IMG/VR virus record: IMGVR_UViG_3300043410_001097
Location: 1-37,914 of that record
Direction: 5' to 3' (one strand)
Length of the DNA: 37,914 bases
From: a virus
This document shows positions 2,015 to 21,600 of the stretch, one piece after another. Under the pieces are notes generated by a model. The model was not told the DNA's origin. It saw only the letters and a program-made list of their open reading frames with translations, and ran no database searches. Both the position numbers and the translations under genes were made by a program. Numbering within the stretch: the first letter of the stretch is position 1; each line of letters opens with the position of its first letter.

Positions 2015-2020
2015 TACGCT
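2015..2020 (+). promoter_or_regulatory. TACGCT -10 box, leaderless start at 2027
   Basis: TACGCT fits TANNNT and is followed by exactly six bases (ATCCGT) before GTG at 2027, so transcription would begin on the start codon. No SD precedes the gene and no TTGACA-like -35 is visible. It is the same box as at 10252. Confidence 0.65.
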
Positions 2021-2026
2021 ATCCGT

Positions 2027-2449
2027 GTGATGAAGCCACGCAAGAAGGTACAGTACGCTAACCCCATCCTGCACGTTATCCGTAAACGGACGACAGTGCT
2101 TGCTGTCCAGCTGACAGGTGAGGAAAGCATTGATGTACTTTCGAGCTTTTATCTCGGTGTAATCAAGCCCGATTCGTTCAACAGTGATGGCGAATTGGAG
2201 TTGCTGCATTTTGACCTCGCAATGGGAGTGCTTTCGTTTCACCCTGTTGAGAAGCCGCTTGAGATGACTATTGGCGATTGGCTTGTCTATGACGGGGACT
2301 CCCTGTCGGTTGTATCCAATTCGATGTTCTTGGCTGAATATCGAATTACCGTCCGTAACAACAAGAAGGAAAAAAGTGTCCGAAGTAAAAAAGACCGAAT
2401 CAAAGCCGTCCGACAAGGTTCAGACGAGTACAACCTCAGGCAGCTTTAG
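2027..2449 (+). CDS. Phage protein with GDW(L/I)V-type domain, function unknown
   Basis: A 140-residue protein. The pattern VLAVQLTGE near the N terminus and TIGDWLVYDGDSLSVVSNSMFLAEYR near residues 80-106 (counted roughly) matches a small domain very common in phage genomes, usually written AVQWTG...PGDWIV...FxxxYE and without a known role. The last 30 residues are Lys/Arg-rich. The start is either GTG 2027, six bases after a TACGCT box, or the next codon ATG 2030; neither has an SD. The 3' end overlaps the next gene by 74 bases in another frame. Confidence 0.7.
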   Translation: MMKPRKKVQYANPILHVIRKRTTVLAVQLTGEESIDVLSSFYLGVIKPDSFNSDGELELLHFDLAMGVLSFHPVEKPLEMTIGDWLVYDGDSLSVVSNSMFLAEYRITVRNNKKEKSVRSKKDRIKAVRQGSDEYNLRQL

Positions 2450-2639
2450 CGAAGAACAGCCGTTGCTCAAAGAAGCAGTGGCGAAAGCGCAGTACTCTAC
2501 GTCAGAGCATTTTGTCGCCATTCGCGATGAGGCCCACGGCACCATTGCCTTGATGCCCGTTGGTTGGGTTGGCGAACCCGCATTGGTTATTGCGGAAATC
2601 AAACTTGCTGACTTGAAGGACCTTCTCAAGCAGCTGTAG
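2376..2639 (+). CDS. Hypothetical protein
   Basis: An 87-residue protein I do not recognise. The first 25 residues are Ser/Thr/Lys-rich and probably disordered. The rest looks folded, with a beta-like stretch (TIALMPVGWVGEPALVIAEI) and a C-terminal amphipathic helix (LADLKDLLKQL). GTG at 2376 is chosen because AAGGA lies six bases upstream. The reading frame starts inside the preceding gene, and the shared 74 bases are lysine-rich in both frames. The next gene lies 79 bases away behind a structured intergenic element. Confidence 0.6.
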   Translation: MSEVKKTESKPSDKVQTSTTSGSFSEEQPLLKEAVAKAQYSTSEHFVAIRDEAHGTIALMPVGWVGEPALVIAEIKLADLKDLLKQL

Positions 2640-2642
2640 ACG

Positions 2643-2704
2643 AGTGGGGAGGTGCGGGCTTCTCCTACATAGGTTCGATGCCGCCTGTGAGCCCCCTCCC
2701 CACT
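2643..2704 (+). ncRNA. Compact structured intergenic element upstream of the HTH gene
   Basis: A perfect 10-bp outer stem (2643-2652 with 2695-2704) is extended by a GGGCT/AGCCC stem (2656-2660 with 2690-2694) and a third stem CATAGG/CCTGTG (one G-U) around a TTCGATGCCG loop. Nearly the whole 62 bases fold into one rod that ends 14 bases before the next start codon. It is followed by TTCTG, not a T-run. It could be an attenuator, a 5' regulatory leader or a processed small RNA. GGTTCGA recalls a tRNA T-arm, but the element is too short for a tRNA. Confidence 0.55.
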
Positions 2705-2718
2705 TCTGAAAGGAAGTT

Positions 2719-3237
2719 ATGAAAAACCCGTATACACGGTTGCGTGAGCTGTGCGGCTTGACGCAAAAAGCGTTTTGTGAGCGCAACGATTTTGGCAAGA
2801 TGACGATGGTGTACCTCGAAGCGGGGATTTACACCAGCGTGAGTGACCGACAAAACATAGCCCTAGGGAGAGAGTGCGCTAATCGCGGGATTGATGCGCG
2901 GGCAATTCTCAATGAGGAATTCGGCACGGAAAGCTTGGCTGTCGCATACAGTAAGTGGCGTACCGCTGAGAGGAAGAACATTGACACGACGAACTATCCG
3001 ACGGAACACCGTGCAGTGGGAGAACAAAGTCCGATGGAGGTTTTCGCTCGGACGGTGGCAGGTTCGATTCAGCGTTTCTGTAAGACGCTGAAGGTACAGC
3101 CCGCTACGCTAAACCGCTACATGCGCGGGCAGACGATTTCGATGCCGAAAGAACTATCCCAGGCATTTGAGGAAATGGGCTTCGACTGCACCAAGTTGTG
3201 CGAAGCACAAGCCCAGTGGGTGCAGGAGCAACTTTAG
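2719..3237 (+). CDS. HTH (XRE-like) DNA-binding protein
   Basis: A 172-residue protein with two candidate helix-turn-helix segments. The first, at about 7-35, reads LRELCGLTQKAFCERNDFG with the LTQ core of XRE proteins. The second, at about 117-150, reads FCKTLKVQPATLNRYMRGQ. A helical linker joins them. Possible roles are a transcriptional regulator or an accessory to packaging, since the next sizeable gene resembles a small terminase. The start has AAAGGAAG at SD distance, and the structured element at 2643-2704 lies in its leader. The stop TAG shares its G with the GTG of the next gene, so translation is probably coupled. Confidence 0.65.
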   Translation: MKNPYTRLRELCGLTQKAFCERNDFGKMTMVYLEAGIYTSVSDRQNIALGRECANRGIDARAILNEEFGTESLAVAYSKWRTAERKNIDTTNYPTEHRAVGEQSPMEVFARTVAGSIQRFCKTLKVQPATLNRYMRGQTISMPKELSQAFEEMGFDCTKLCEAQAQWVQEQL

Positions 3238-3395
3238 TGTGGAGTTGCCAATGTGCTGGATGTTCCAAGGCTCGCAAAGCAGAACGTGAGCTGATTCTCA
3301 AAGAGATTGAGGAAGCACCGATTGCGTTTGATTTCTTTGGGCCATACATTGCTCGGGAAAAACTGATGGGCTTTTTGAAGGGAGAGACCAAGTGA
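3237..3395 (+). CDS. Small Cys-containing hypothetical protein
   Basis: A 52-residue protein starting VWSCQCAGCSKARKAERELI. Three cysteines (CxCxxC) near the N terminus suggest a metal site, possibly completed in a dimer. The remainder is a charged helix followed by a short hydrophobic patch (IAFDFFGPYI). The start is GTG at 3237, overlapping the previous stop as TAGTG, with AGGAG eight bases upstream. No function is recognised. Confidence 0.6.
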   Translation: MWSCQCAGCSKARKAERELILKEIEEAPIAFDFFGPYIAREKLMGFLKGETK

Positions 3396-3481
3396 CTTTC
3401 TTGGATTTGGTAACGTTTGCGGGCTTGGCAGTAAGCGGCCTTATCGTGCTGATAATTGATGCGAGTCGTCGTGGTAAATGA
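3392..3481 (+). CDS. 29-residue single-pass membrane peptide
   Basis: GTG at 3392 overlaps the preceding stop (GTGA) and is preceded by GGGAGAG. The product is a short hydrophobic helix containing TFAGLAVSGLIVLIID, followed by a basic ASRRGK tail, which is the topology of a small membrane protein with its C terminus in the cytoplasm. Its coupling, SD and composition support it, although it is too short for homology to help. Its end overlaps the N-terminal frame of the next gene. Confidence 0.5.
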   Translation: MTFLDLVTFAGLAVSGLIVLIIDASRRGK

Positions 3482-4196
3482 CGTTGAAATGTTTGACGGC
3501 GGAATTGAAGTAACAAGTCCCGCTGGAAAGTTCAAGCAGATTGCCACCCCGACAGGGTTCACTGACCTTGCGTTCCGCAATGCGGTGATGGCATTTGACA
3601 CTTACTACCGTGTCGGCGGTGCCGTACCGAACATTGATGACTTGGCGAAGTTTTTGCCGAGCATGGAAAAGCGTAAAATTTCAGCCTTATTTTTGACGGA
3701 TGCGTTCAAAGAGGCGTTGGAATATCGAGGTATTTCTTTTGACCCCGAGAAGCACATTCTCACCATGGAACAGCAGACTACGCTGCTGAAGTTGTCTGAC
3801 CCGTTTGATAAGCGGGCACTGTCGACCAAGTTGAAAGAGCTTGGTGTACCGATGCCTCGGTTCCAGGCGTGGCTCAAGCAGCCGTTGTTTTTTGAGATTT
3901 ACAACAAGCACAGTCAGAACGCTTACCGTGAAGCATTGCCCGCTTTGCGAAACCGCTTGATTAGCAACGCTGAGAGCGGCGACCACAAAGCCATTGAATT
4001 GGTATTTGCGATTACAAATGAGTGGAACCCTGCACAGCAAAGCCTTGAGGATGCTCGCGTCATAATTATGAAGATTGTCGAAGCCATTACCACCCATGTG
4101 AAAGACCCTGAGGTGCGGAAAGCTATTCTCACGGACATTTCACTTTATGCCAGTACAATAGGCGAAGTGGGTTCCCCTAAAACTTTGGAGGCGTAA
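3459..4196 (+). CDS. Probable terminase small subunit
   Basis: A 245-residue, mostly helical protein. At about 120-200 it carries KLKELGVPMPRFQAWLKQP, the HTH-like DNA-binding segment, and then YREALPALRNRLISNAESGDHKAIELVFAIT, the helical ALPxxxxxLxxxAxxGDxxAxxL pattern typical of phage small terminases of the phBC6A51 kind. Such proteins bind the packaging site and deliver DNA to the large terminase. Here the large subunit lies 6 kb downstream beyond the fibre and lysis genes, an unusual separation. The start is uncertain: ATG 3459 is given, with GTG 3471 and ATG 3489 as alternatives, and none has a clear SD. The stop overlaps the next ATG (TAATG). Confidence 0.6.
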   Translation: MRVVVVNDVEMFDGGIEVTSPAGKFKQIATPTGFTDLAFRNAVMAFDTYYRVGGAVPNIDDLAKFLPSMEKRKISALFLTDAFKEALEYRGISFDPEKHILTMEQQTTLLKLSDPFDKRALSTKLKELGVPMPRFQAWLKQPLFFEIYNKHSQNAYREALPALRNRLISNAESGDHKAIELVFAITNEWNPAQQSLEDARVIIMKIVEAITTHVKDPEVRKAILTDISLYASTIGEVGSPKTLEA

Positions 4197-4522
4197 TGGC
4201 CCAGTCAACAAGCAAGCTTGCCCTGTACAAGCCTGGCGGTGGTTCCTATGGGACGAACACGCCTGACGAGACTGCCGACATCGACAAGCTCAACGACAAC
4301 TTTGACAAGATTGATGCTGCTATCGGCATTACTGTATGCACTTCCAGCACCCGTCCCGCTTCGCCGTTTACGGGTAAGCAGATTTACGAAACAAACACCC
4401 GACTGAGTTACGTCTGGAGTGGCAGTGCGTGGTTGATGGTGTCGCCGCCCGTTACTATTTTTGTCCAGAGTGGGACGCCTACCGCAAACGCGGTCAATGA
4501 CCTCTGGTTCTGGGGAGCCTAA
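4196..4522 (+). CDS. Short fibre-associated structural protein
   Basis: A 108-residue protein. It carries the pattern NTPDETADIDKLNDNFDKID near residues 20-40, often seen at the N termini of phage fibre and baseplate-associated proteins. It ends with ANDLWFWGA-like residues after a Thr/Pro-rich stretch. GGAGG precedes the ATG, and TAATG overlaps join it both to the upstream terminase gene and to the following fibre gene. It probably forms a virion decoration or a fibre adaptor. No catalytic motif is visible. Confidence 0.6.
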   Translation: MAQSTSKLALYKPGGGSYGTNTPDETADIDKLNDNFDKIDAAIGITVCTSSTRPASPFTGKQIYETNTRLSYVWSGSAWLMVSPPVTIFVQSGTPTANAVNDLWFWGA

Positions 4523-5592
4523 TGGCAACGTGGTCCGATAGCTTCAGTATACGGACAGACCACGCACTCGAACTTGTGCTCACGGAACTGTCGTATGATT
4601 CCGTAGCAAATACGTCAAGTGTGAAGGCCACCCTTCAAATCAATCCGTCGAGTACCAGCGGAAGCTGGAGTAGCGTCTCAGGCGACAACGATTACAGCAT
4701 GACGTTTGAAGGTTCAACGTATACAGGTAACTTTACGTTTGACTATCGAACTGACCGCTCGACACAAGTACTTCGTAGCGTTACCAAAACGATTACACAT
4801 GGAACAAATGGCGCTGGAACTGCCACTGCTCGTGGAAACGTAGGCACAGTTGTTCTTGGAAGCGCAACTGTCGGAACGAGTGGTAGCCCGAAACAGTTGA
4901 CGCTGACTGTACTTCCTGGAGCTCCTGCTACTGCACCAACCTTAGTGCGTAACATAGATGGTACAGGTGTCAATGTTGTATCAGGAACAAGTGGAACAAC
5001 TGCCACAATTACTGACTATGAATATCAGCAAAGTACTGATGGAACTACTTGGGGTACTGCCACCTCAATGGGTACTGACGCCACGATTGACATTACTGGT
5101 CTTACTGCAACTCAACGCTATTTTTACCAAACACGAATCCGCACTGCAGCTGGAACCAATGGAGTTGGGGCTTGGAGTGCGACGCAAGAAAGTATTGGTG
5201 CACCCGCCACAATTACAGCAGTTCGTACTGGTCGAGATGTTTTAGTTACAGCTGGAAATGCAACTGGGTCAGGAATTACTGGGTACTACGCACAAAGTTC
5301 ACTGGACAATGGAGCCACTTGGACTACCGCAGTATTGATGACTACTCAGACGTATACCTATACCAATCTGACTCCCGCAGCAACGTGTAAATTCCGAGTC
5401 TACGCAGCAGCACCGTCAGGAAACTCTGGCTCTACGACAAGTACCTCAGTATTCATTCCCGCTGGAGGAAAAATTTGGAATGGGTCTGCTTGGGCGTATG
5501 GGACTACCGCAAAGCGCTGGGATGGTGCCGCATGGAAAGATTTGACTACCGCGAAGATATGGAACGGCACTTCTTGGGTTGATTTGACCTAG
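4522..5592 (+). CDS. Tail fibre-like protein with Fn3-type domains
   Basis: A 356-residue Ser/Thr/Gly-rich beta protein. An N-terminal jelly-roll-like domain (about 1-130) is followed by two fibronectin type III-like modules (about 130-225 and 228-312); each ends in a YxxTxIRT or KFRVYAA strand. The last 40 residues carry three W-x-G-x-x-W repeats. This composition fits a host-recognition or virion-surface fibre. The gene begins inside the previous stop (TAATG) with GGGGAG as SD. Next is a phosphoesterase gene, an unusual neighbour for a fibre. Confidence 0.7.
   Translation: MATWSDSFSIRTDHALELVLTELSYDSVANTSSVKATLQINPSSTSGSWSSVSGDNDYSMTFEGSTYTGNFTFDYRTDRSTQVLRSVTKTITHGTNGAGTATARGNVGTVVLGSATVGTSGSPKQLTLTVLPGAPATAPTLVRNIDGTGVNVVSGTSGTTATITDYEYQQSTDGTTWGTATSMGTDATIDITGLTATQRYFYQTRIRTAAGTNGVGAWSATQESIGAPATITAVRTGRDVLVTAGNATGSGITGYYAQSSLDNGATWTTAVLMTTQTYTYTNLTPAATCKFRVYAAAPSGNSGSTTSTSVFIPAGGKIWNGSAWAYGTTAKRWDGAAWKDLTTAKIWNGTSWVDLT
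5470..5589 (+). repeat. Three C-terminal K-x-W-x-G-x-x-W repeats in the fibre gene
   Basis: The encoded C terminus repeats KIWNGSAW, KRWDGAAW and KIWNGTSW about every 16 residues, each followed by a short polar spacer, twice TTAK. Such aromatic, glycine-centred repeats occur at the C termini of actinophage tail proteins and may bind surface glycans; that role is inferred. Confidence 0.7.
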
Positions 5593-5595
5593 ACT
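5590..5595 (+). promoter_or_regulatory. TAGACT -10 box for the phosphoesterase gene
   Basis: TAGACT overlaps the stop codon of the fibre gene and is followed by seven bases before ATG 5603. No SD is present. It fits the leaderless set. Confidence 0.55.
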
Positions 5596-5602
5596 CAGGT
5601 AT

Positions 5603-6850
5603 ATGCCTTCGATAGTTTGTAATACCTGCCAATGGGAAAACGCCAACGGCAAACGTCTTGACCTTACAAAAAGTAACCGAGCTCTTGCGGCAGAAATCGG
5701 TGTCAGCGACGCAGCAATTCGACGTCATAAGAAACATGGCGAACAAGGCCGAGTAATTGAGGAACTTGTCGAATCAACTGGCTACTCATGGAATATTGGC
5801 AATGATGAATTTGATGGCACAAGTAAATCTTCTGAAAAAGAACTGACTACCAATGATGTAGAAGACTTCATCAAAGCCAAAGGATTGAATCCTGATGAGT
5901 GGGATTATCAGTGGAGATTCTCAGAGTGGGAACAGTTCTCAAAAGCAAATGGGCTTCGTATGCTGCACTCATTCAAAGTCAGCGGTAAGCGCAAGCCCAA
6001 AGACACCACCTTTGTCGTAGACCCTGCTGATTTCAAAAGAATTCTGGATACTTTTGTTTATGTTCATGATGAGCATAAAGGCAAAGGTGCCTCTCTCGTA
6101 TTAGTTCCTACTGACCTTCAGCTTGGGAAAAAAGACTGGAATGGCAATCACGAAGACACCATCAGTCAGGTGTTGAGGTCATTCCATCGAGCAGCAGAAG
6201 AGGCTAGGCATAACGACAACTGCGAAATTGTTATTGTCGATGCTGGAGACCCGATTGAGAACATTTGGAATGTCTCTAGTCAACGAAGTACCAACAGTTT
6301 GTCACTTCCTATGCAAGTAGCTCAAGCATTTGAGTTGATGCTTACTGGAATCCAGATTTTGTCGAAAGTAGCACCTGTCAGATATGTAGCAGTGCCATCT
6401 AATCATGGAGCTAGTCGAGTAGGAATCAAGTCACCTGAAGGTGACGTCCATGATGACTGGGGAATTGCTCTTGCTGACATGATTGCTTCTGCAACAGAAA
6501 TTGAAGTAATCAAGCCTGACTTGTATCACGATTCCCTTATTTTTGAAGCCAGCGGAAGCCAGATTGGTGTAGTCCATGGACACCAAGCAGGGAGTGCTGA
6601 CAAAGTTGGTGAATGGTGGAAAGGCCAGTCGCACGGCAATATGCCGACAGCGCGGGCTCGAATTCTTATTTCTGGTCACTGGCATAGTTTCCGTATGTAT
6701 CAATCAGGAGATGCTCGCTGGGTATTTGTCGGCCCCTCAAGTGACCGTGGTTCTTCATGGTTTACCAATATGAAAGGTGAGTGGAGTACCTCAGGTATGC
6801 TTACTTTTCAGACACGCGATAATCTCTGGTCAGACCCCAAAATCGTGTAA
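5603..6850 (+). CDS. Calcineurin-like metallophosphoesterase with N-terminal HTH
   Basis: A 415-residue protein. Residues 1-50 hold a CxxC and a helix-turn-helix-like segment (NRALAAEIGVSDAAIRRHKK). Residues 165-370 hold the metallophosphoesterase motifs in order: D171-L-Q173, GDPIEN (D216), SNHG (N267, H268), HGH (325-327) and GHWH (359-361). The usual D-x-H of motif I is D-x-Q, and GNHD is SNHG; both are tolerated in some phage members. The family hydrolyses phosphodiester or phosphomonoester bonds with two metal ions. The substrate is unknown; nucleic acid is plausible given the HTH. It lies between fibre genes, with its own apparent leaderless promoter. Confidence 0.8.
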   Translation: MPSIVCNTCQWENANGKRLDLTKSNRALAAEIGVSDAAIRRHKKHGEQGRVIEELVESTGYSWNIGNDEFDGTSKSSEKELTTNDVEDFIKAKGLNPDEWDYQWRFSEWEQFSKANGLRMLHSFKVSGKRKPKDTTFVVDPADFKRILDTFVYVHDEHKGKGASLVLVPTDLQLGKKDWNGNHEDTISQVLRSFHRAAEEARHNDNCEIVIVDAGDPIENIWNVSSQRSTNSLSLPMQVAQAFELMLTGIQILSKVAPVRYVAVPSNHGASRVGIKSPEGDVHDDWGIALADMIASATEIEVIKPDLYHDSLIFEASGSQIGVVHGHQAGSADKVGEWWKGQSHGNMPTARARILISGHWHSFRMYQSGDARWVFVGPSSDRGSSWFTNMKGEWSTSGMLTFQTRDNLWSDPKIV

Positions 6851-6856
6851 TACAAT
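6851..6856 (+). promoter_or_regulatory. TACAAT -10 box, leaderless start at 6863
   Basis: TACAAT directly follows the phosphoesterase stop codon and precedes ATG 6863 by exactly six bases. It is the best -10 hexamer in the window. Confidence 0.65.
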
Positions 6857-6862
6857 ATCCAA

Positions 6863-6949
6863 ATGGACATCGAGAACAAAGACCGAATTGGCGACTACTC
6901 AATCCCTATGGACCCCATGGATTTGCTACAGTGTGAGTCATGTCAGTAA
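6863..6949 (+). CDS. 28-residue leaderless peptide with C-terminal CxxC
   Basis: ATG 6863 opens a 28-codon frame ending in LLQCESCQ, with Met/Asp/Pro-rich middle residues. Its stop overlaps the start of the HAD phosphatase gene, giving an overlap of ten bases. There is no SD, but the TACAAT box sits at exact leaderless distance. It might be a true micro-protein with one metal-binding knuckle, or a leader peptide that feeds ribosomes into the phosphatase gene. Confidence 0.45.
   Translation: MDIENKDRIGDYSIPMDPMDLLQCESCQ
6927..6932 (+). promoter_or_regulatory. Weak TACAGT -10 candidate for the HAD gene
   Basis: TACAGT lies seven bases before ATG 6940, inside the 28-codon ORF. It fits TANNNT, but coupling from the upstream ORF would also explain expression. 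Confidence 0.35.
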
Positions 6950-7281
6950 TTCTTGACATTGACGACACTGTTCTTCGGAAGGGAATCTATCCCATCCAGA
7001 AGACAATCGACTATGTAAATGGACTCCATACTGTCGTCTACATGGTGACTGGTCGAATGGAATCTCAGCGACGTGCAACTGAAACTGCATTGCGTAAAGC
7101 AGGTATTCGATACTCGCATCTCTACATGAATCCTTACTCGACTCGGGATTCCAATAAATTCAAAGCCGAAATGGCCCATAAACTTCGTGGAGTAACTTTG
7201 GCAATCGACAACGATGCTGGGGCTCGTAAAGTTTACGAAGATGCAGGAATCAAAACGCTAGACCCTGCCTCTATCAAGTAA
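6940..7281 (+). CDS. HAD-superfamily phosphatase
   Basis: A 113-residue minimal HAD phosphatase. Motif I is LDIDDT with the nucleophile D6 and acid/base D8, motif II is VTGR (T37), Lys73 or Lys75 serves as motif III, and IDND (90-92) is motif IV. There is no cap domain. The size and motifs resemble the 3'-phosphatase domain of phage polynucleotide kinases, so nucleic acid end repair is possible, though nucleotides or sugars are also possible. It follows a metallophosphoesterase in the fibre locus and precedes the main collagen-like fibre. Confidence 0.8.
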   Translation: MSVILDIDDTVLRKGIYPIQKTIDYVNGLHTVVYMVTGRMESQRRATETALRKAGIRYSHLYMNPYSTRDSNKFKAEMAHKLRGVTLAIDNDAGARKVYEDAGIKTLDPASIK

Positions 7282-7284
7282 ACT
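7279..7284 (+). promoter_or_regulatory. TAAACT -10 box, leaderless start at 7291
   Basis: TAAACT overlaps the HAD stop codon and is exactly six bases from ATG 7291. The identical hexamer lies before 16882 and, on the other strand, before the primase. No SD is present. Confidence 0.65.
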
Positions 7285-7290
7285 TGCCGT

Positions 7291-9633
7291 ATGTCACTCA
7301 ATGACTTCACTGGCACTGGTTCTGGCTCGTCATACACGAGTAAGCCCAGTCCTGCTGAAGTAAACGATTTTCATACAAATAGTGACGTTGATAATCGACT
7401 TGAGTCACAGCACCATACTCTTGGATTTGGTCCGTATCAAGCAGCAGCTGGCGACCACACGCACAAACTTACTGCTATTACTGGATTTCCTGGAGTTGGG
7501 ACAAACGGTCTTTACTTCAAAAGTAACGGCGATGGAACTTATAGTTGGGCATCGCCTTCATCTGCCTCTGGAGCAATGAACTATGCCCAGAATCAAGCAA
7601 CGGCTGTAACCGTTCCTGGAGGTACTGGTAGTGCTCCATATTCTTTGGTGTCTAAGAGCATTACAACTAGCGGATATCCTGTATTGGTTATCGCTAGTGG
7701 AGATTTCTCTGTAGGTTCTGTTCCTTCCGCTGGATATCGAAACAACTCAATTCAAGCACTAAGAACTACATCAGGTACTACCTCATCTGTCGGTGAAGAA
7801 TTTTTTGTTGATGGAACTGTAGCTGATGCGGATACTCCGTTTGCGTTTAGTTTTATTGATACTCCCGTAGCTGGCACACATACTTACAGCATCAATCAAA
7901 ATGTGGCTAGTCCCTCAACTCTTCTTTACGACATTGTAAAAATTACAATCGTTGAACTTACGGGCGCAACGGGCCCTACTGGTGCAACTGGAGCAACAGG
8001 GGCAACAGGTGCTACTGGCCCTACAGGAGCAACAGGGCCTACGGGACCGACTGGAGCAACTGGTAGCGCAGCAACTATTGCAGTAGGAACGACTACCACT
8101 GGCGCGGCTGGTACCTCTGCTTCAGTAACAAATAGCGGCACTTCCTCTGCGGCTACATTCAACTTCACTATCCCTCGTGGCGATACAGGTGCCACTGGAG
8201 CAACAGGTGCAACTGGGTCAACTGGAGCCGATGGAGCAGCAGCCACAGTTGCTGTTGGAACTACTACAACTGGAGCAGCAGGTACAAGTGCTTCCGTAAC
8301 CAACTCTGGTACCTCAAGTGCCGCAGTATTCAATTTCACTGTTCCTCAAGGAGCAACTGGTCCGACTGGCGCTACTGGTCCGACTGGAGCAACAGGCGCT
8401 ACTGGAGCAACTGGGGCTACAGGGGCGACTGGTCCTGGCGTACAAACTGGTGGTACTACTGGTCAAATTCTCGCTAAAGCAAGTAATACCAATTACGACA
8501 CGCAATGGGTAAATACTCCTCCGCCTAGTCTTTATGCAACAAGTCCTCTTGCTTGGAATAGCGGAACTTCTACGATGTCCATTGATACATCTACGTTTGT
8601 TATGCAGGGTGGACCCCAGCAACTGTATGTCAAGAATGGCTCGACCTCAATTAGCAAGGGCCAACCTGTATACATTACTTCAGCAGATGGAACCAACATC
8701 ATCATTGGCCTCGCTGGTAATGGTGCTGAATCTACTTCAAGCAAAACACTCGGACTTGCTTCTCAGGCCCTGTCGGCTAACCAATTTGGTTGGGTAACTA
8801 CTTTTGGCGCTCTTGCTGGATTTGATACTTCAGCAGGTACTGCAGGAGACCCTGTATGGCTTGGTACTACAGGTAACTTGATTTATGGACTTTCAGGCAA
8901 ACCGACAGCGCCCGCGCATCTTGTCTACATTGGTGTTGTTACTCGAAGCAACAATAGTAACGGCGAAATTTTTATTCGTCCCCAAAATGGATTCGAGCTT
9001 GATGAGCTACACGATGTATCTATTACTTCAGTAGCTACTGGAGATGTCCTTATCCGCAATAGCGGTAACACACTCTGGGAAAATAAACCGCAATCAGCAA
9101 TAACTATTGCCGAGTCACAAGTAACAAACCTTGTATCAGACCTTGCAGCCAAAGCTGCTACAGCTGATTCCCGATTTCAACCCACAGGTGTTGTACAGAT
9201 GTGGGCTGGTAGTGCGACTTTGCCTACTGGATGGCTTCTTTGTGATGGTACGGCAGTATCTCGTACTACTTATGCCACGTTGTTTACGGCTATTGGTACT
9301 ACTTATGGAGCAGGGAATGGTTCTACTACCTTCAACTTGCCCAATCTTGTAAGTAAGTTTCCCCGAGGAGCTACTTCATCTGGAGCAACAGGTGGTTCAG
9401 ATACTCACTCACATACGTTGTCCAATAGTGGTTGGGCAAAAACTCGACGTGCTAACAACCGAACTATTGCCCAAGAAGTTACTGCAACTTCATGGACGGC
9501 TACAGATTCGGTTACTGGAACTGGTGGAGCTGACTCTACTTCTGGTACTAACGCTGTAGGTCTTGGCGGTTCTACCGACAGCGGTAGCACACTTCCTGCT
9601 TACATTTCTATGCAGTACATCATCAAGACATAG
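7291..9633 (+). CDS. Collagen-like tail fibre with C-terminal tail-collar domain
   Basis: A 780-residue fibre. The N terminus (about 1-225) is a virion-attachment and beta region with [23 protein letters not shown]. Collagen-like Gly-Ala-Thr/Gly-Pro-Thr triplets (about 225-259, 307-316 and 352-383) alternate with two copies of a beta module. A central beta region of about 260 residues follows. The tip, at about 635-780, is a phage tail collar domain ([21 protein letters not shown], then [13 protein letters not shown] and a DTHSHTL His motif). Collar domains bind receptors and often a metal through the His motif. This is likely the main receptor-binding fibre, expressed from its own leaderless start. 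Confidence 0.9.
8068..8409 (+). repeat. Two 57-residue tandem modules in the fibre, diverged at synonymous sites
   Basis: Copies at 8068-8238 and 8239-8409 encode nearly the same beta module ([23 protein letters not shown] and so on) plus collagen triplets. In the core of about 35 residues only about three amino acids differ, yet most codons differ at the third base and two Ser codons have swapped boxes (TCT/AGT, AGC/TCT). Confidence 0.8.
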
Positions 9634-9636
9634 TGA

Positions 9637-9642
9637 TACTCT
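9637..9642 (+). promoter_or_regulatory. TACTCT -10 box, leaderless start at 9649
   Basis: TACTCT fits TANNNT and lies exactly six bases before ATG 9649. There is no SD. The shift from fibre to lysis genes happens here. Confidence 0.55.
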
Positions 9643-9648
9643 CTTAGT

Positions 9649-10071
9649 ATGGAAATTAGCCGTCCCGCTCCGCGAATCATTCATATTACTTCTCCGTATG
9701 GGCCTCGTAAGGCCCCCACTGCTGGAGCAAGTACTTTTCATCATGGAATTGACTTTGGAGGAAAATTTCAAGTCAGCATTGCTCGAAAAGGCAAAGTTGT
9801 TGCCAAGGGATATGACCCGAATGGATACGGGCATTACATCTGTGTTCGTCACGCAGAAGTAACTGCCAAAGGAATTCGTTTCTGGCAGACTTTCTACGCC
9901 CACGGAAGCCATGCATCCACGCTTACTGTCGGTAAGCGAGTCAACGATGGAGACCATGTATTTATTTCTGGGCAAACTGGTGTAGCCACTGGCGACCATC
10001 TCCACTTTGAACTTCGTAAACGAGTTGGAAAAGTTTACGTTCCCGTCAACCCTGCCCTTTTCATCGTCTAG
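9649..10071 (+). CDS. M23-family peptidoglycan endopeptidase (lysin)
   Basis: A 140-residue protein made of one M23/LytM domain. The zinc ligands are visible as H31-x3-D35 (FHHGID) and H119 of HLHFE, with H84 (YAHGSH) and H117 as catalytic histidines. M23 enzymes cut peptide cross-links of peptidoglycan. There is no signal peptide or wall-binding domain, so it is either an endolysin released by the following holin-like protein or a virion-associated enzyme. The stop overlaps the SD of the holin-like gene, so the two are probably translated together. Confidence 0.85.
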   Translation: MEISRPAPRIIHITSPYGPRKAPTAGASTFHHGIDFGGKFQVSIARKGKVVAKGYDPNGYGHYICVRHAEVTAKGIRFWQTFYAHGSHASTLTVGKRVNDGDHVFISGQTGVATGDHLHFELRKRVGKVYVPVNPALFIV

Positions 10072-10078
10072 GAGAATC

Positions 10079-10249: not shown

Positions 10250-10251
10250 GG

Positions 10252-10257
10252 TACGCT
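10252..10257 (+). promoter_or_regulatory. TACGCT -10 box, leaderless GTG start at 10264
   Basis: TACGCT is exactly six bases from GTG 10264 and is identical to the box at 2015. No SD precedes the terminase start. Confidence 0.65.
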
Positions 10258-10263
10258 AGTAGC

Positions 10264-11835
10264 GTGGCTACTAAGCAACAGCCTACGGCTGAAGAACTCA
10301 TCAAGCTTGCCCTTTATGAGCTCGACCAGAGTATACATAAGCCGAATATTCTCAATTACGGCGAAAAGGATTACCCCGAGCAACTGAGATTTCATAAATC
10401 ATCGGCTCGTGGACGATTTGTCTCTGGTGGAAACCGTGGAGGCAAGACCGATGCTGAAGTTGTCGAATCAATTTGGTGGGCAACCAATAGCCATCCATAC
10501 CTCAAACGCCCTGAAGAGTGGGGAAATGGACCAGTTCAGCTTCGCTTTGTCGTAGTTGATGTGGCTAAAGGTATTGAGCAGATAATCCTGCCGAAGATGC
10601 AGCGATGGATTCCCAAGTCTTACCTCAAAGATGGAAGCTGGGACAAGAGCTGGGATAGTTCCAACTACATTCTGACTTTTGCCAATGGGTCCACGATTGA
10701 CTTTGTGACCTGGGGTATGGACATGATGAAGCTTGGTGGTGTTCCCCGCCACGGAATTTTCTTCGATGAGGAGCCTCCTCAGCACATTTTCAATGAATCA
10801 ATGATGCGCCTTATTGACTACAACGGATTTTGGGTCATCGCTGCAACACCGACGAAAGGCATGGGATGGACCTTCGACCTCCTATGGGAACCTGCTACCA
10901 ACAATCCCGAAATCGGAATCGATACATTCACTCTGTCGGCAGAGCAGAATCCGTATATCCAAGCAGATGTAGACGACATGAATTTCTACATGATGGGTAT
11001 GGACAAAGAAGAACGAGACATTCGTGAAAAAGGTTCGTTCGTGGCTCGCTCGGGTCTGGTGTTCCCTACTTTCAACTCTGATTTCGAGAGACATGTTGTG
11101 GATTTTGGTCCTGCTGATGTACCTCGTAATTGGGCTATTTACGCATCGGTAGACCATGGATTGAATAATCCGACAGCATGGCTTTGGCATGCAGTCTCTC
11201 CTCAGGGAGACATCGTTACATTTGCAGAGCACTACCAAACAAACATGATTGTGTCGGAGCATGCATCAATCGTGAAGCAACGAGAGTTGTCATGGAGTCG
11301 AAGTCCTGATGACGTTGAGCGTATGGGCGACCCTGCTATGAAGCAACGTAGTGGAATTACTGGTACAAGTATTCTCCAGGAATACGCCCTCCATGGTGTT
11401 TACATCAATGTAGAGGGAATTCCTCATGATGTCATGGTTGGTGTCGAAAAGATGCAAGCATATTTTCGATTTAGGGATGATAGCCATTGGGGAGAAAATC
11501 GACCTAAATGGGTTATTTCTCGAAACTGCACTAATTTTCTCCGAGAAATGAAAAAGCTTCGCTGGGGTACTTATAGCTCAGATAAGACTGCTTATGAAAT
11601 GAATAAGCAAGAAGTTGTCCATAAGAAGGATGACCACGCTTTTGATTCCGCCCGATATTTTGCAACTACACGACCTGACCTGACTCCTTTTAGCGTAGAA
11701 GCTCAAAAAGCTCCCCCGACTACGCTAAGATACGAGGAGTTACTTCTACGGATGCAGAATGACCCCAACGTTACTTTCGTAGAAGACATTGATACCAAAT
11801 GGGTAACAGTGACCGAATACGGAGACTACAACTAA
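10264..11835 (+). CDS. terL: Terminase large subunit
   Basis: A 523-residue packaging motor. The N-terminal ATPase has Walker A GGNRGGKT at about 55-62 and Walker B GIFFDEE at about 164-170. The C-terminal RNase H-like nuclease shows YASVDHG for its first acidic residue and DDHAFDSARYF for the last. The length is typical. It powers DNA translocation into the prohead and cuts the concatemer. It starts at GTG directly below a TACGCT box. The expected small subunit is not adjacent; the best candidate is at 3459-4196. Confidence 0.93.
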   Translation: MATKQQPTAEELIKLALYELDQSIHKPNILNYGEKDYPEQLRFHKSSARGRFVSGGNRGGKTDAEVVESIWWATNSHPYLKRPEEWGNGPVQLRFVVVDVAKGIEQIILPKMQRWIPKSYLKDGSWDKSWDSSNYILTFANGSTIDFVTWGMDMMKLGGVPRHGIFFDEEPPQHIFNESMMRLIDYNGFWVIAATPTKGMGWTFDLLWEPATNNPEIGIDTFTLSAEQNPYIQADVDDMNFYMMGMDKEERDIREKGSFVARSGLVFPTFNSDFERHVVDFGPADVPRNWAIYASVDHGLNNPTAWLWHAVSPQGDIVTFAEHYQTNMIVSEHASIVKQRELSWSRSPDDVERMGDPAMKQRSGITGTSILQEYALHGVYINVEGIPHDVMVGVEKMQAYFRFRDDSHWGENRPKWVISRNCTNFLREMKKLRWGTYSSDKTAYEMNKQEVVHKKDDHAFDSARYFATTRPDLTPFSVEAQKAPPTTLRYEELLLRMQNDPNVTFVEDIDTKWVTVTEYGDYN

Positions 11836-11843
11836 GGAGAGTC

Positions 11844-14617: not shown

Positions 14618-14717
14618 CTGTTACACTAATTTCGTGTGAAAGATAACTTTCATACGAAAATCAGTTACAATTACAACAGCTAGGGCCTCTACCTGAGGTA
14701 CGGCGTTAGGAGTACAA
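14618..14717 (+). promoter_or_regulatory. Intergenic control region before scaffold and capsid
   Basis: A 12-bp stem with one G-U pair (14631-14642 with 14647-14658, loop ATAA) follows the portal stop, with no T-run. TACAAT at 14666-14671 fits the -10 box used elsewhere and would give a leader of about 40 bases to GTG 14718, which has an AGGAG SD. Two short palindromes, GTAACTGTTAC (14614-14624) and TACCTGAGGTA (14690-14700), flank the box. A separate promoter for the highly expressed head genes is plausible. Confidence 0.5.
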
Positions 14718-15557
14718 GTGGACGACCTTACTGGTACAGATTCAGTAGATACCTCGGCGGAGATACCTACAACGAATTCAGGGCCTGTAGACGGCGGAGC
14801 CCCCGCCACCGAAGAAGGTGGAGGGAATCCCGCGTGGGAGTCTCTTCGTACAAAGCTCGACCCCATTAGCTTCAAAGCTATCGAGGAAGACCTCAAGGGA
14901 TGGGACAAGAACGCGGAATCGCGTATCTCGAACCTGAACTCGCAGTTGAAGTCCTACAAGGACCTTGGCGAAGTGGACCAGCTCCAATCCTATGCATCTC
15001 TTGCACAGCAGATTGACAGCAATCCTGAGGCTATCTACGAAGCTTTGGGCAACTTTCTTCGTCAGAATGGACGACTTCCTGAGACCGAAGCAGAAATGCA
15101 GGAGGCTCTGGATGAAACGGAAAGCAATGGTCAGGAGTACCGTGACCCCCGTCTCGACCAGCTTGAGCAACAGCAAGAGCAAATGCGTGAGTTCCTTGCA
15201 CAGCAGGAACAAATGCGAGTCGAGCAGGAAGCGGATGTAGCTCTTGAGCAGGAAATCGGGCAACTCCAGCAGACTCATCCCGACTTCACGGATGATGACA
15301 TTCAGGAAGTTCTGATGCGAGCAGCATTTGAACTGTCGAATGGAAGCAACCGTTCGTTGGATGAGATTGCACAGGAGTACATCGAAAAGACCGTCAACCG
15401 TATTCGCGCTGTACCGCGACCTGGTGACACGGCACCCCGACTTCTTCCGACTTCGGGAGGAGTACCTACTAGCAATGGACAGGCCACTCCGCTCGGGAAG
15501 ATGTCGAGAAGTGACGTACAGTCGCTCATTGCGGCTTCACTTCAACAGGGTGTTTAG
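14718..15557 (+). CDS. Scaffolding protein
   Basis: A 279-residue, acidic, Gln/Glu-rich, largely helical protein. It starts with a disordered Asp/Thr/Pro/Gly-rich region, and at about 140-200 has a long coiled coil (LDQLEQQQEQMREFLAQQEQ and onward). A conserved-looking QTHPDFTDDDIQEVLMRAAF segment follows, and then a basic C terminus. Position between portal and capsid, composition and size match scaffolds of podoviruses, which organise capsid assembly and then leave or are degraded. It starts at GTG with AGGAG SD. Confidence 0.8.
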   Translation: MDDLTGTDSVDTSAEIPTTNSGPVDGGAPATEEGGGNPAWESLRTKLDPISFKAIEEDLKGWDKNAESRISNLNSQLKSYKDLGEVDQLQSYASLAQQIDSNPEAIYEALGNFLRQNGRLPETEAEMQEALDETESNGQEYRDPRLDQLEQQQEQMREFLAQQEQMRVEQEADVALEQEIGQLQQTHPDFTDDDIQEVLMRAAFELSNGSNRSLDEIAQEYIEKTVNRIRAVPRPGDTAPRLLPTSGGVPTSNGQATPLGKMSRSDVQSLIAASLQQGV

Positions 15558-15588
15558 TCACCGCTAAACCAAGAAAGCAGGTAGCCAA

Positions 15589-16812
15589 GTGGCAACCAAC
15601 CTCTCGACCATCGACACCTACATGAAGGAGGTGTACCAGGGACGCATCCGTGAGCAGCTGAACGACGAAATCGTTGCACTCAAGCGAATCACGCGAAGTG
15701 GCTCGGGTGTCACCAACGAAACTGGTGGAAAGTACGTTACCTTCCCCATCCACACCCGCCGCAACGCGGGTATCGGCTCGCGCCTTGAGTCGGAAGCTCT
15801 CCCCACCCCTGGTCAGCAGGGTCACGCGGCAGCCCGCGTTGGCCTCAAGTATGGCTACGGTGGAGTTCAGCTCACGGGTCAGGCAATCTCGCTCTCGTCG
15901 ACGGATGCAAAGGCATTTGCCCGCGCACTCGACAACGAGGTTGAGGGCCTCAAGAACGACATCAAGAAGGACATGAACCGCCAGATTTATGGCACGGGTA
16001 ACGGAGCCATCGGCACCGTCAAGACGACCTCGACTTCGGTCAACGTCATTCCTGTCACTGACGCTCGTCTCTTCCAGATTGGTGCTGTCGTCGACATCGT
16101 TACGCTCCCCTCGACTGTTGCAGTTGCTGGACGTACCGTCACGGCAATCTCGCTGGCTTCTGGCGCGAACACTGTTACCCTTTCGGGTGCTTCGTTCAAC
16201 GTCACGGCTGGTCAGATTCTCGCTCGTTCGGGTTCGGGACCCGCTGCTGGTGGAAACCGTGAACTCACGGGCCTCGGCGCAATCGTCTCGAACACTGGCT
16301 CGCTCTACAACGTCGACCCCTCGACTGAGCCTGAGTGGACCGCCGAAGTCAACTCGAACAGCGGAACGGGTCGTGCCCTTTCTGAGTCGCTCATGATTCA
16401 GATGGTGGACCGTATCCGTACCCGTGGTGGTTCGACGACGCTCATCCTCCAGTCGCTCGGTGTTCGCCGTGCGTACTTCAACCTCCTGTCGCAGTACCGT
16501 CAGACGGTCAACACGCAGGACTTCACGGGTGGATTCACTGGACTCGCGTTCACCACTGACCGTGGAGAAATCCCCGTCATCGCTGATGTTGACGCTCCTC
16601 TCGGAACGCAGTACTTCATCAACGAAGACACCCTCACCTACTACCGCGACGAGGACTGGCACTGGCTTGACCGTGACGGCTCGATGTGGAAGCAGGTCCG
16701 TGACGCCAACGGCGACTACGACGCTTACTACGCTCGTCTCGTGGAATACCACGAGCTCGGCTGTGACCGCCGTAACTCGAACGGTGTCATCCAGGACATC
16801 ACCGAGGCGTAA
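15589..16812 (+). CDS. Major capsid protein
   Basis: A 407-residue HK97-fold capsid protein. The N-terminal arm and E-loop region (KYVTFPIHTRRNAGIGSRLE) is followed by the helical spine (DAKAFARALDNEVEGLKNDI), an inserted beta region rich in Ser/Thr/Val (about 145-225), and a C-terminal core with LILQSLGVRRAYFNLL and GLAFTTDRGEIPVIAD. The start is GTG 15589 with AGGTAG upstream. Codons end mostly in C, unlike the neighbouring genes, as expected for the most abundant virion protein. A good terminator follows at once. Confidence 0.9.
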   Translation: MATNLSTIDTYMKEVYQGRIREQLNDEIVALKRITRSGSGVTNETGGKYVTFPIHTRRNAGIGSRLESEALPTPGQQGHAAARVGLKYGYGGVQLTGQAISLSSTDAKAFARALDNEVEGLKNDIKKDMNRQIYGTGNGAIGTVKTTSTSVNVIPVTDARLFQIGAVVDIVTLPSTVAVAGRTVTAISLASGANTVTLSGASFNVTAGQILARSGSGPAAGGNRELTGLGAIVSNTGSLYNVDPSTEPEWTAEVNSNSGTGRALSESLMIQMVDRIRTRGGSTTLILQSLGVRRAYFNLLSQYRQTVNTQDFTGGFTGLAFTTDRGEIPVIADVDAPLGTQYFINEDTLTYYRDEDWHWLDRDGSMWKQVRDANGDYDAYYARLVEYHELGCDRRNSNGVIQDITEA

Positions 16813-16824
16813 GCCTTAGTGCGT

Positions 16825-16855
16825 GGGGCCAGTCGGTAACGGCTGGCCCCATTTC
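16825..16855 (+). terminator. Terminator after the capsid gene
   Basis: An 8-bp perfect stem, GGGGCCAG (16825-16832) with CTGGCCCC (16843-16850), is followed by ATTTCC. The T-run is short, so termination may be partial. It separates the scaffold-capsid unit from the next leaderless gene. Confidence 0.75.
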
Positions 16856-16869
16856 CGTATGTGAAAGGG

Positions 16870-16875
16870 TAAACT
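16870..16875 (+). promoter_or_regulatory. TAAACT -10 box, leaderless start at 16882
   Basis: TAAACT is exactly six bases from ATG 16882 and lies just after the capsid terminator, so a new transcript is needed here. No SD is present. Confidence 0.7.
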
Positions 16876-16881
16876 TTTAGC

Positions 16882-17367
16882 ATGACCGACCTCACGATGA
16901 GCACATCGCTTACGAATGACCCGAAAGTTTGGAATTCCGAACACGGCGAATTTATCAATGAGAATCACCGACGATTTGCGGAGATTCTGTCGGATTTCAA
17001 GCCCACTTACTCTTTGGTATATATTCCTGAAGCAGACCGAGTATCTGCAGATGACCATGCAAAGCCTTTTGCAATTCTCGACAGTCCCGATGGAGTTCCT
17101 TCGTACATTGTTCGTTACTTGACTCCTCAAGAAATGGATACACCTGAAAAGATTATTGCTTGGCTTTTCATGGGGGATACTGTCCGTCATGGAGCAGAAA
17201 ATGTCTTCAAACGCATCCAAGCAGAAGAAGATGCGAAGAAGCTCATGGAAATGAAAAACCGCGAGGATGAGCTTGAAGATATGGCTGAGTTTGCCGAGTT
17301 TCTTCTTGAAGGTGGAAACAACCACCTTCACACCTTCAAGCACGATGGAAAGGTGTACAACCGCTAA
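16882..17367 (+). CDS. Head-region hypothetical protein
   Basis: A 161-residue acidic protein I do not recognise. The N-terminal half is a compact alpha/beta region (NENHRRFAEILSDFKPTYSLVYIPEADR). The C-terminal half is a highly charged helix (AENVFKRIQAEEDAKKLMEMKNREDELEDMAEF, given here in parts). It lies between capsid and tail-tube genes, where podoviruses often have a head-completion or chaperone protein. Its stop overlaps the next start (TAATGA), so translation is coupled. Confidence 0.65.
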   Translation: MTDLTMSTSLTNDPKVWNSEHGEFINENHRRFAEILSDFKPTYSLVYIPEADRVSADDHAKPFAILDSPDGVPSYIVRYLTPQEMDTPEKIIAWLFMGDTVRHGAENVFKRIQAEEDAKKLMEMKNREDELEDMAEFAEFLLEGGNNHLHTFKHDGKVYNR

Positions 17368-18023
17368 TGAGCTATAACATTCCTACACGCACCGCTGCTG
17401 ATGTTGCTGCAGCGGTCAAGCGAGTATTTGGCGATGAATCAGGTGTACAGCTAGTCGATAACGACATTATTACTTGGGTAAATCAGGCACAGGTACATAT
17501 TGCATCAAGTACCCGAGTTCTCAAGACCAAGGCAACTACAGTAATCGTCAATGGTCAGAGCACTTATACCCTGTCGGGGCTCAATCCCAATATCCTTCAA
17601 ATGGAAAGCATCCTTATTGATGGACGCCGAATTGGCAACATGTCCACTGCTCAGGCCGAAGAAAGCATTTCAAGAATTGACCCTCTTGCAGAGGAAACTG
17701 GATTTCCGCGATTCTGGTATGAGTGGGCTGGAGAAATAACTTTCTGGCCTAAGCCTGACTTTGATGGACAAATGGTTATTCGGTATACCGCTCTTCCTGC
17801 GACGGTAGTAAATATCTCTGATGTGATGTCAGTTCCTGATGAATTCTTCAATGACGTCACAAACTTTGTTCTTCAAAAAGCATACGAAATGGATGAGAAT
17901 GTCCAGATGATGATGCTTGCCAAAAAGGACTTTGACGAGTCAATGTCTGAGCTTACTGACGAAGAGCGTCAGGCACAGAACATGACTTACGAAACGCTTA
18001 CCATCTACAACAACTTCTTCTAG
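17367..18023 (+). CDS. Tail tube/adaptor protein, T7 gp11-like
   Basis: A 218-residue protein in the place of the podoviral tail tubular protein A or head-tail adaptor. It has an N-terminal helical part (ADVAAAVKRVFGD, then DIITWVNQAQVHIAS), a beta core with YTLSGLNPNILQMESILIDGRR and FPRFWYEWAGEITFWPKPDFD, and a C-terminal helical bundle. Adaptors of this type form the ring below the portal. It starts within the previous stop codon. Assignment rests on fold-like pattern, length and order rather than a catalytic motif. Confidence 0.7.
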   Translation: MSYNIPTRTAADVAAAVKRVFGDESGVQLVDNDIITWVNQAQVHIASSTRVLKTKATTVIVNGQSTYTLSGLNPNILQMESILIDGRRIGNMSTAQAEESISRIDPLAEETGFPRFWYEWAGEITFWPKPDFDGQMVIRYTALPATVVNISDVMSVPDEFFNDVTNFVLQKAYEMDENVQMMMLAKKDFDESMSELTDEERQAQNMTYETLTIYNNFF

Positions 18024-18030
18024 GAGAATA

Positions 18031-19587
18031 GTGCCTGGTCATCTTGTACCGATTGGTCCTTTTACTGGTGGACTCAACACGTTCAGTGACCCCTCAGCAA
18101 TCAACGATAAAGAACTTGCTGTAGCCACCAACGTTGAACTTGACCTTGATGGCTCAATCAAGTCACGTCCTCCTTTTGTTGATGCCGCAATCGACTTTCC
18201 TTTGGGCTCAACTGGTGACATTTATCTACTTGGTTACTACTATGACTCGTCAGGTTCTCCGTATCTTCTTGCCAGTAATGGGCTAAATAACACTTACTTC
18301 TTCAATGGAACTAGCTGGGTTAGCGTATTTGGTGCTGGAGGTACGGCGTTTGCCGCTACAGCAATGACTCAGTATGACGGTAAAGCATGGCTAGTAGCTC
18401 CTCGTAGTTCGTCTGGAACTACCTATAGTGGCTATTGGGTTCCTGGTAGTACTTATGGAACTTTTACCCAACAAACAAACATGCCTAAAGGCGATACCAT
18501 TGTCAACTTCAAAGACCGACTTTGGGTTACACGAAACACCGATTCTGTCGTCACTTATAGCAACATCTTTTCTGACGCAGCAGGTCTTTGGACAGTATCT
18601 AACGCTCAATTTGTCGTTGGAACTGGAGATGGTCAGTCCATTGTCCAAGTAATTGTGTATTTCAATTCATTGTTGATTTTCCGTAATAGAAGTATCTGGA
18701 GTTTTGCTTACTCTGGAGACCCTGGTACTGGAGGTGCTCAGTCTCAAGTAGTTGGTGGAATTGGACTATCTGGTAAAGATTCAGTAGTTCAATTTGAAAG
18801 CTATGTCTACTTTATGTTTGAAGACCGAGCTTACGAATTTACTAATGGTAGGGCCGCACACCTGAATATCAAGGTTCCGTTCAAATCTGGTAGCCAGTCA
18901 GGAATCTACTTGCCGTTTGCTGTATCAGAGTTCAATCGTCGTATTGTTTTTTCTTACTACGACACGATGTATGTATTCAATTTGGTGACTCGTACATGGA
19001 CTACTTGGACTACTTCGGTATACGGTTCCATTGGAAAAATTATCAAACAAGAAAGCAATAGTTCAGACACGCTGGCTTACGCACATAGTTCAACTACCGT
19101 TACTGGTGGAACTCGTAATGCTAAAACTCTCACTATTAGTGATGTTCTTGGCAGCGTTGGAGAATCAATGTCTTGCGTCGTACAGACCAAGAACTTGGAT
19201 TATGGTGCATCCTCTGAGTACAAGCGACTTTTCTGGTGGGGTGTCGATGCAAGTTTTCGTGGAACAGTTACAGCTGTTGCTGCACCGATTACATTTAGTC
19301 AGCAAATTACTTGGGGACAGTTGCGAGCAAGTACTTGGGGTACTGTCCGTAACTTTACTTGGGGCCAGCCGTTGAGCGCTCAGATGTACGTTGAGACCGT
19401 TCGTAGTACTGTCGGAATTACTGCTGGACGTCAATTCATGAAATTCCTCAAGAGCCTTCGTTTTCGACAGATTTACTTCAAGCTAACAACTACGACAATG
19501 GGTACTACGAGTACTGCACCGATGCGTATCTTCAGAATCCACAGTTTTGTCAATTTGAAACAAACTGTGGCGAAACCCATTACATAG
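18031..19587 (+). CDS. Tail tube/nozzle protein, T7 gp12-like
   Basis: A 518-residue beta-rich protein beginning with PIGPFTGGLNTFSDPSAINDKELAVATNVELD, the pattern seen at the start of many podoviral stabilisation or tail tubular B proteins. Repeating beta blades rich in Ser/Thr/Tyr follow, e.g. RLWVTRNTDSVVTYSN. It likely forms the nozzle beneath the adaptor ring. GTG 18031 has AGGAGAATA as SD seven bases after the previous stop. Confidence 0.72.
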   Translation: MPGHLVPIGPFTGGLNTFSDPSAINDKELAVATNVELDLDGSIKSRPPFVDAAIDFPLGSTGDIYLLGYYYDSSGSPYLLASNGLNNTYFFNGTSWVSVFGAGGTAFAATAMTQYDGKAWLVAPRSSSGTTYSGYWVPGSTYGTFTQQTNMPKGDTIVNFKDRLWVTRNTDSVVTYSNIFSDAAGLWTVSNAQFVVGTGDGQSIVQVIVYFNSLLIFRNRSIWSFAYSGDPGTGGAQSQVVGGIGLSGKDSVVQFESYVYFMFEDRAYEFTNGRAAHLNIKVPFKSGSQSGIYLPFAVSEFNRRIVFSYYDTMYVFNLVTRTWTTWTTSVYGSIGKIIKQESNSSDTLAYAHSSTTVTGGTRNAKTLTISDVLGSVGESMSCVVQTKNLDYGASSEYKRLFWWGVDASFRGTVTAVAAPITFSQQITWGQLRASTWGTVRNFTWGQPLSAQMYVETVRSTVGITAGRQFMKFLKSLRFRQIYFKLTTTTMGTTSTAPMRIFRIHSFVNLKQTVAKPIT

Positions 19588-19600
19588 TTCAAAAATGCTT

Positions 19601-19606
19601 TAGAAT
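19601..19606 (+). promoter_or_regulatory. TAGAAT -10 box, leaderless start at 19613
   Basis: TAGAAT is exactly six bases from ATG 19613. There is no SD. It would start the transcript for the internal virion protein cluster. Confidence 0.65.
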
Positions 19607-19612
19607 ATTTAC

Positions 19613-19816
19613 ATGGTAAATCCCATTCGTGCTCGGTTTTCTGAACCCGCACAAGGGGGCGGAGGATTCAACGCCTACGCTGCTGGTAATAAGCATTACG
19701 GAGCAGGTCGTCCGATGCCTACCACTGGTAAAATTGCCAACAAATACGGTTACGCAGAGCGTGACGCAAAAGCCGCTGCACGACGCAGCGCCCTGATGAA
19801 AAGGATAGGAAGCTAG
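19613..19816 (+). CDS. Small basic Gly-rich protein
   Basis: A 67-residue, strongly basic protein with a Gly-rich N-terminal half (EPAQGGGGFNAYAAGNKHYG) and a helical Lys/Arg/Ala C-terminal half (AERDAKAAARRSALMKRIG). No family is recognised. The basic character suggests a DNA-associated or minor virion component. It is first of three small basic genes before the internal virion proteins, and its stop shares a base with the next GTG. Confidence 0.65.
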   Translation: MVNPIRARFSEPAQGGGGFNAYAAGNKHYGAGRPMPTTGKIANKYGYAERDAKAAARRSALMKRIGS

Positions 19817-21591: not shown

Positions 21592-21600
21592 GGTAGTTAT

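Follow-up and report, generated by a model that had tools for sequence, protein, structure and literature searches.

TANNNT boxes six to seven bases before virion-strand start codons point to leaderless transcription in a family of phages related to Microbacterium phage Shocker

In actinobacteria, more than one fifth of the genes are leaderless and a TANNNT motif about 12 bp before the start codon marks them (Zheng et al. 2011, PMC3160421). Mycobacteria appear to translate leaderless mRNAs robustly (PMC7148126). Among phages, Thermus phage phiYS40 makes middle and late mRNAs that lack leaders (reviewed in PMC3594737), and Thermus phage P23-45 has extended -10 promoters with no -35 element for its middle and late genes (reviewed in PMC7403470). 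In addition, a leaderless transcript was predicted for gene 90 of mycobacteriophage Adephagia (PMC11373665). The DNA analysed here (the window) comprises positions 1 to 37,914 (37.9 kb) of the IMG/VR virus record IMGVR_UViG_3300043410_001097 and carries TANNNT boxes with six (d6) or seven (d7) bases between box and start codon on its plus strand. These boxes are very probably host sigma-A promoters, consisting of almost nothing but a -10 box, that yield leaderless mRNAs for the virion-strand genes.

Gene content, relatives and host of the window

Gene functions were assigned in PHROG and Pfam scans. The plus strand encoded the virion genes; terminase (10264), portal (12464), major capsid protein (15589) and tail-tube-type protein (17367) with their neighbours, a 1875-aa internal-type protein (21601) and a peptidase-like tail protein (27239). 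The minus strand encoded the replication genes; DNA polymerase, helicase/primase, recombination ATPase, exonuclease and SNF2-type helicase. No terminal repeat was found in the 37.9-kb window. Positions 1-2000, possibly an end or packaging region, had a GC content of 57% compared to 45-52% in the rest of the window and carried minus-strand ORFs of 160 and 197 aa without a PHROG match.

Named matches for capsid and terminase were Microbacterium phage Shocker (62% and 49%, respectively), Cellulosimicrobium phage DS1 and Arthrobacter phages Jasmine and Adat. All named hosts among the capsid matches were Micrococcales. A capsid-protein search in 84,980 bacterial and archaeal genomes gave no prophage or host link for the window, and no near-identical phage records of it were found. 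With Microbacterium, Arthrobacter and Cellulosimicrobium as the hosts of its relatives, the window most likely belongs to a phage of actinobacteria, and its host would be expected to produce leaderless mRNA. The T7-type RNA polymerase family PF00940 was absent from the window, which may be a fragment, and from ten relatives, and the same search was positive for T7. This agrees with the proposal of an earlier, sequence-only reading of the window that no phage RNA polymerase is needed; judged from gene content, transcription in this phage is not T7-like.

Boxes and genes along the plus strand

The sequence-only reading had reported nine boxes, at d6 before 2027, 6863, 7291, 9649, 10264, 16882 and 19613 and at d7 before 5603 and 6940. 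All nine hexamers and spacers were correct when re-read. As a list of box genes it held for the most part, except that 6940 is doubtful because its box is explained by coding, and that 21601 had been left out. Orthologous starts were compared in up to 14 relatives, and a wider scan covered 80 loci of the phage family.

The first box, TACGCT (2015-2020), is preceded by TGG as in an extended -10 element and stands at d6 to GTG 2027 and d9 to ATG 2030. It leads a gene of unknown function (2027-2449) with a leaderless-type start, and TACGCT was present at d7 in all three orthologues (relatives G002, G004 and G006). Shocker (L054) has two leaderless-type starts, at approximately 525-550 and 3557-3582, with a nearly identical upstream element, GTGCTACCCTAAC, which resembles the box region before window gene 2027, GTGGTACGCTATC.

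The exonuclease/metallophosphoesterase-like gene (5603-6850; phrog_284, E 5e-40) was preceded at d7 by TAGACT (5590-5595), whose TAG also ends gene 4522-5592. The box was found at d6 in G004 and at d8 in G006, with a clear SD instead in G002 (d6 or d7 in 1/3 orthologues). This variation suggests switching between leaderless and SD modes, which has been described for bacterial genes (PMC3160421). A conserved 28-aa micro-ORF with a leaderless-type start (6863-6949) followed, with TACAAT at d6 (6851-6856); its box was at d6 in G002, G004 and G006 (d6 or d7 in 3/7 orthologues). The micro-ORF ends in DPMDLLQCESCQ and a stop codon, and ten distinct counterparts (G002, G004, G006, G010-G012, G014, L067, L069 and L113) shared a similar size and the same C-terminal motif and stop; their starts were leaderless-type in the nearest relatives and SD-led in some others. 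The CxxC of the micro-ORF suggests metal binding or a disulfide, and its C-terminus, CESCQ, resembles the N-terminus MPSIVCNTCQ of the exonuclease-like protein.

TACAGT (6927-6932), at d7 to ATG 6940, lies within the micro-ORF as its Leu-Gln-Cys codons and is doubtful as a promoter. Gene 6940-7281, HAD phosphatase/polynucleotide-kinase-like (phrog_415, PF03767), had no orthologues beyond a near-identical contig and appears to be an insertion that separates the micro-ORF from the tail fibre gene (7291-9633). The leaderless-type start of the latter had TAAACT at d6 (7279-7284), with the TAA being the stop codon of gene 6940-7281, and the box was at d6 in G002 and G006 (2/7 orthologues). In G002, the tail fibre orthologue has a -10 box formed by the TAG stop of the micro-ORF itself. 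The endolysin/metallo-endopeptidase gene (9649-10071), also with a leaderless-type start, had TACTCT at d6 (9637-9642) preceded by TGA, and TAATCT stood at d6 in G006 (1/2 orthologues).

The leaderless-type start of the large terminase gene (10264-11835) had TACGCT at d6 (10252-10257). Its orthologues carried TAAGTT at d6 in G002, G004 and G016 (3/11), so that, outside the nearest relatives, the box occurs at a single more distant locus. In addition, the portal, scaffold-region and capsid genes were SD-led, and the earlier suggestion of promoters at each module border therefore applies in part. Further downstream, a small conserved virion-region gene (19613-19816, 67 aa) had TAGAAT at d6 (19601-19606), and a box at d6 or d7 in 8/11 orthologues and 14/34 loci of the wider scan, among them Shocker at d7. 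The gene of the large internal-virion-type protein (21601-27228, 1875 aa) had TAAGGT at d6 (21589-21594), the TAA being the stop codon of gene 20638-21591, with the box in 7/9 orthologues and 10/23 loci of the wider scan; both starts are leaderless-type. Gene 27239, considered as an extra d7 site beyond the first nine, was rejected with the box in 0/4 orthologues.

As in the actinobacterial leaderless class, the SD of TANNNT genes was weak or missing and TANNNT showed a sharp peak six to seven bases before the start (about 10-12 bp). It had been claimed that box starts lack a good SD while nearly all other plus-strand genes have one. SD matches were indeed shorter at box genes (p = 0.007); however, genes 3489, 20144 and 27239 had virtually no SD, and AAGG was retained upstream of 21601 and 10264 despite the box. 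Alignment of 53 distinct boxes showed no information for a -35 signal and a preference for G at -14 (0.7 bit), similar to extended -10 promoters. The boxes could alternatively be RNA-level start signals, or promoters whose transcripts have a leader a few bases long, instead of marking strictly leaderless starts. The start-associated sequences (SAS) of cluster K mycobacteriophages, situated 3-9 bp before starts with a presumed role in translation initiation (PMC11373665), offer a precedent, but these are 13-bp conserved sequences that reach beyond the ribosome binding site, whereas the sites here are constrained essentially at the T, A and T of the box and have a weak SD. We consider this alternative very unlikely.

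Conservation, strand bias and the hairpin behind the capsid gene

A terminator-like 13-bp hairpin (16823-16852) was identified right after the major capsid gene, and just 3' of it TAAACT (16870-16875) stands at d6 to gene 16882-17367, which encodes a conserved 161-aa protein between the capsid and tail-tube genes and has a leaderless-type start. A strong hairpin, whose best local fold had a median energy of -31 kcal/mol, was present directly 3' of the capsid stop codon in 52/52 relatives. The hairpin thus occurs throughout the family, with varying genes downstream, and no long perfect stems were found upstream of the leaderless starts other than the one after the capsid gene. The 16882 box was found at d6 or d7 in 12/12 orthologues and in 44/51 distinct loci of the wider scan, and the seven loci without it were mostly the most distant. 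The hexamers varied (TAAACT, TAGGAT, TAAAAT, TACACT) with T, A, T and the spacing constant, and the start defined by the box gave most orthologues an equal length of 156 aa. Hairpin and box together suggest that transcription ends behind the capsid gene and restarts for the next module from a host-type promoter. The predicted fold of the 16882 protein (pLDDT 66) gave no significant PDB match and matched only its own orthologues in a viral structure library.

A scan of related genomes, as the sequence-only reading had advised, showed that box and spacing were kept at orthologous starts across large divergence and that SD-type neighbours almost never had a box. A d6 or d7 box was found in 2/116 orthologues of twelve other genes taken together, and in 5/241 distinct loci for six control genes, the matched control being SD-type neighbours within the same loci. 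The difference between 16882 and these controls was large (Fisher 5e-39), with the loci being related and not independent trials.

The boxes could also be a by-product of compact gene junctions, with TAA or TAG at a set spacing from the following start and a fortuitous final T. At 5603, 7291 and 21601 the upstream stop codon does form the first three bases of the box, which makes the match cheaper there, and family-wide 6/86 boxes begin with a stop codon and 25/86 lie two bases behind one. However, 80/86 boxes do not begin with a stop codon, SD-led junctions lack the box, and the upstream stop of 16882, the best conserved site, is 69 bases away. Where extra genes lie between the capsid gene and the 16882 orthologue, as in Shocker, the upstream stop has moved and the box has stayed with the orthologue. 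Such a by-product is thus a highly improbable source of the boxes, and host promoters for leaderless mRNAs are the preferred explanation.

Of 24 plus-strand genes in the window, eight had TANNNT at d6, a number that rose to 11 with d7 included, and none of the ten minus-strand genes had a box. The background in the same upstream regions was 0.7% per position (binomial 5e-12 for 8/24 at d6). The earlier advice to compare with shuffled sequence was also followed, and 5000 dinucleotide shuffles gave a mean of 0.37 and a maximum of 4 at d6, and a mean of 0.74 and a maximum of 5 at d6 or d7. A scan of ORFs whose starts were chosen mechanically found five sites at d6 and three at d7 in the window compared to 0.45 per spacing; extended to eleven relatives, it showed the d6 peak in most genomes, with a sum of 45 compared to 8.7 expected from other spacings. 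The starts annotated by the depositors of Shocker included five d6 and one d7 sites compared to 0.7 expected per spacing. Among 1216 distinct candidate starts in the 80 loci, 61 had the box at d6 compared to about 16 per spacing, and 0.8% of internal ATG/GTG codons were preceded by a box family-wide. TANNNT is a loose motif to which starts may have been chosen to fit, and single sites can be chance, such as 5603 and 6940 (the latter coding-constrained) or the unkept d7 box of 27239, but shuffles never approached the observed counts, the peak also appeared with starts chosen mechanically or annotated by others, and the box was kept at orthologues, so that chance, which may hold for 6940 alone, is refuted as a general explanation and has hardly any probability left.

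In a panel of other phages, Min1, BFK20, T7 and PA6 showed no excess of the box, so the pattern is not common to all actinophages, and the more distant isolates DS1 and Adat had two sites each, a non-significant excess. In eleven family genomes, d6 boxes preceded 40 of 303 ORFs on the virion strand (background 6) and three of 270 ORFs on the replication strand (background 2.4), a strand difference with Fisher 4.5e-9. The d6 peak is restricted to the virion strand.

Proposed transcription and comparison with known systems

The host sigma-A (sigma-70-type) polymerase would recognise TANNNT, often with G at -14. With the box six, sometimes seven, bases upstream, the first transcribed base would be the A or G of the start codon. 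The actinobacterial ribosome would initiate directly on the 5'-terminal AUG or GUG of the resulting leaderless mRNA. On the virion strand, such promoters would serve gene 2027, the exchangeable genes (exonuclease-like, micro-ORF, tail fibre and lysin), the terminase gene, 16882 (from behind the hairpin 3' of the capsid gene), 19613 and 21601, and the mostly SD-led genes in between would be transcribed from the promoter upstream. Conservation at orthologues, the Micrococcales hosts of the family and the absence of PF00940 support the original proposal of a sigma-70-type -10 box with leaderless starts, in which the promoter role and the exact +1 are predicted. Little more than TA, T and a start codon is required for a leaderless promoter, and an upstream stop can be reused in it, so that exchangeable phage genes could carry their own expression at very low cost.

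A further possibility is a timed switch that arose independently of the Thermus phages, with SD-led early genes, virion genes on leaderless transcripts lacking a -35 element, and a phage factor moving the host polymerase and perhaps the ribosomes. The strand bias of the d6 boxes given above would fit a leaderless class limited to middle/late genes, with timing read from gene content only. No factor redirecting the host polymerase or shifting initiation factors was noticed in the PHROG/Pfam scans, and we regard such a switch as unlikely.

Gene callers built around SD sites can misplace starts of this kind and overlook short leaderless ORFs, which matters for annotation. Shocker is a cultured relative with six precise predicted 5' ends, at start codons 550, 3582, 16907, 18521, 21224 and 23449, which makes the promoters testable at once. 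Searches of open-access full texts, with few subscription journals among them, gave no account of an actinophage family whose virion genes include a leaderless set.

The late region of T7 likewise has a terminator directly behind the capsid gene and before the tail genes, but T7 has its own RNA polymerase and its annotated starts lack TANNNT at d6 or d7. Adephagia gene 90 is also a predicted leaderless case in an actinophage, but a single gene with no genome-wide pattern. phiYS40 shares a leaderless class, there of middle/late genes, but is an unrelated phage of another host phylum for which an initiation-factor shift was reported. P23-45 shares the extended -10 type without a -35 element and encodes gp39, an inhibitor of -10/-35 promoters, of which no counterpart was noticed here in the PHROG/Pfam scans. 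The actinobacterial TANNNT genes, which the sequence-only reading had rightly called well known, have the box at the same distance, likewise read as a -10 box giving leaderless mRNA (PMC3160421), and differ in being on bacterial chromosomes, whereas the present genes belong to a phage family and to its virion strand only. Overall, the mode is already known from actinobacterial hosts and from phiYS40 and P23-45, and its use by the present family seems undescribed; it would add an actinophage case in which leaderless gene starts are both family-wide and strand-specific, in an arrangement kept in dozens of relatives.
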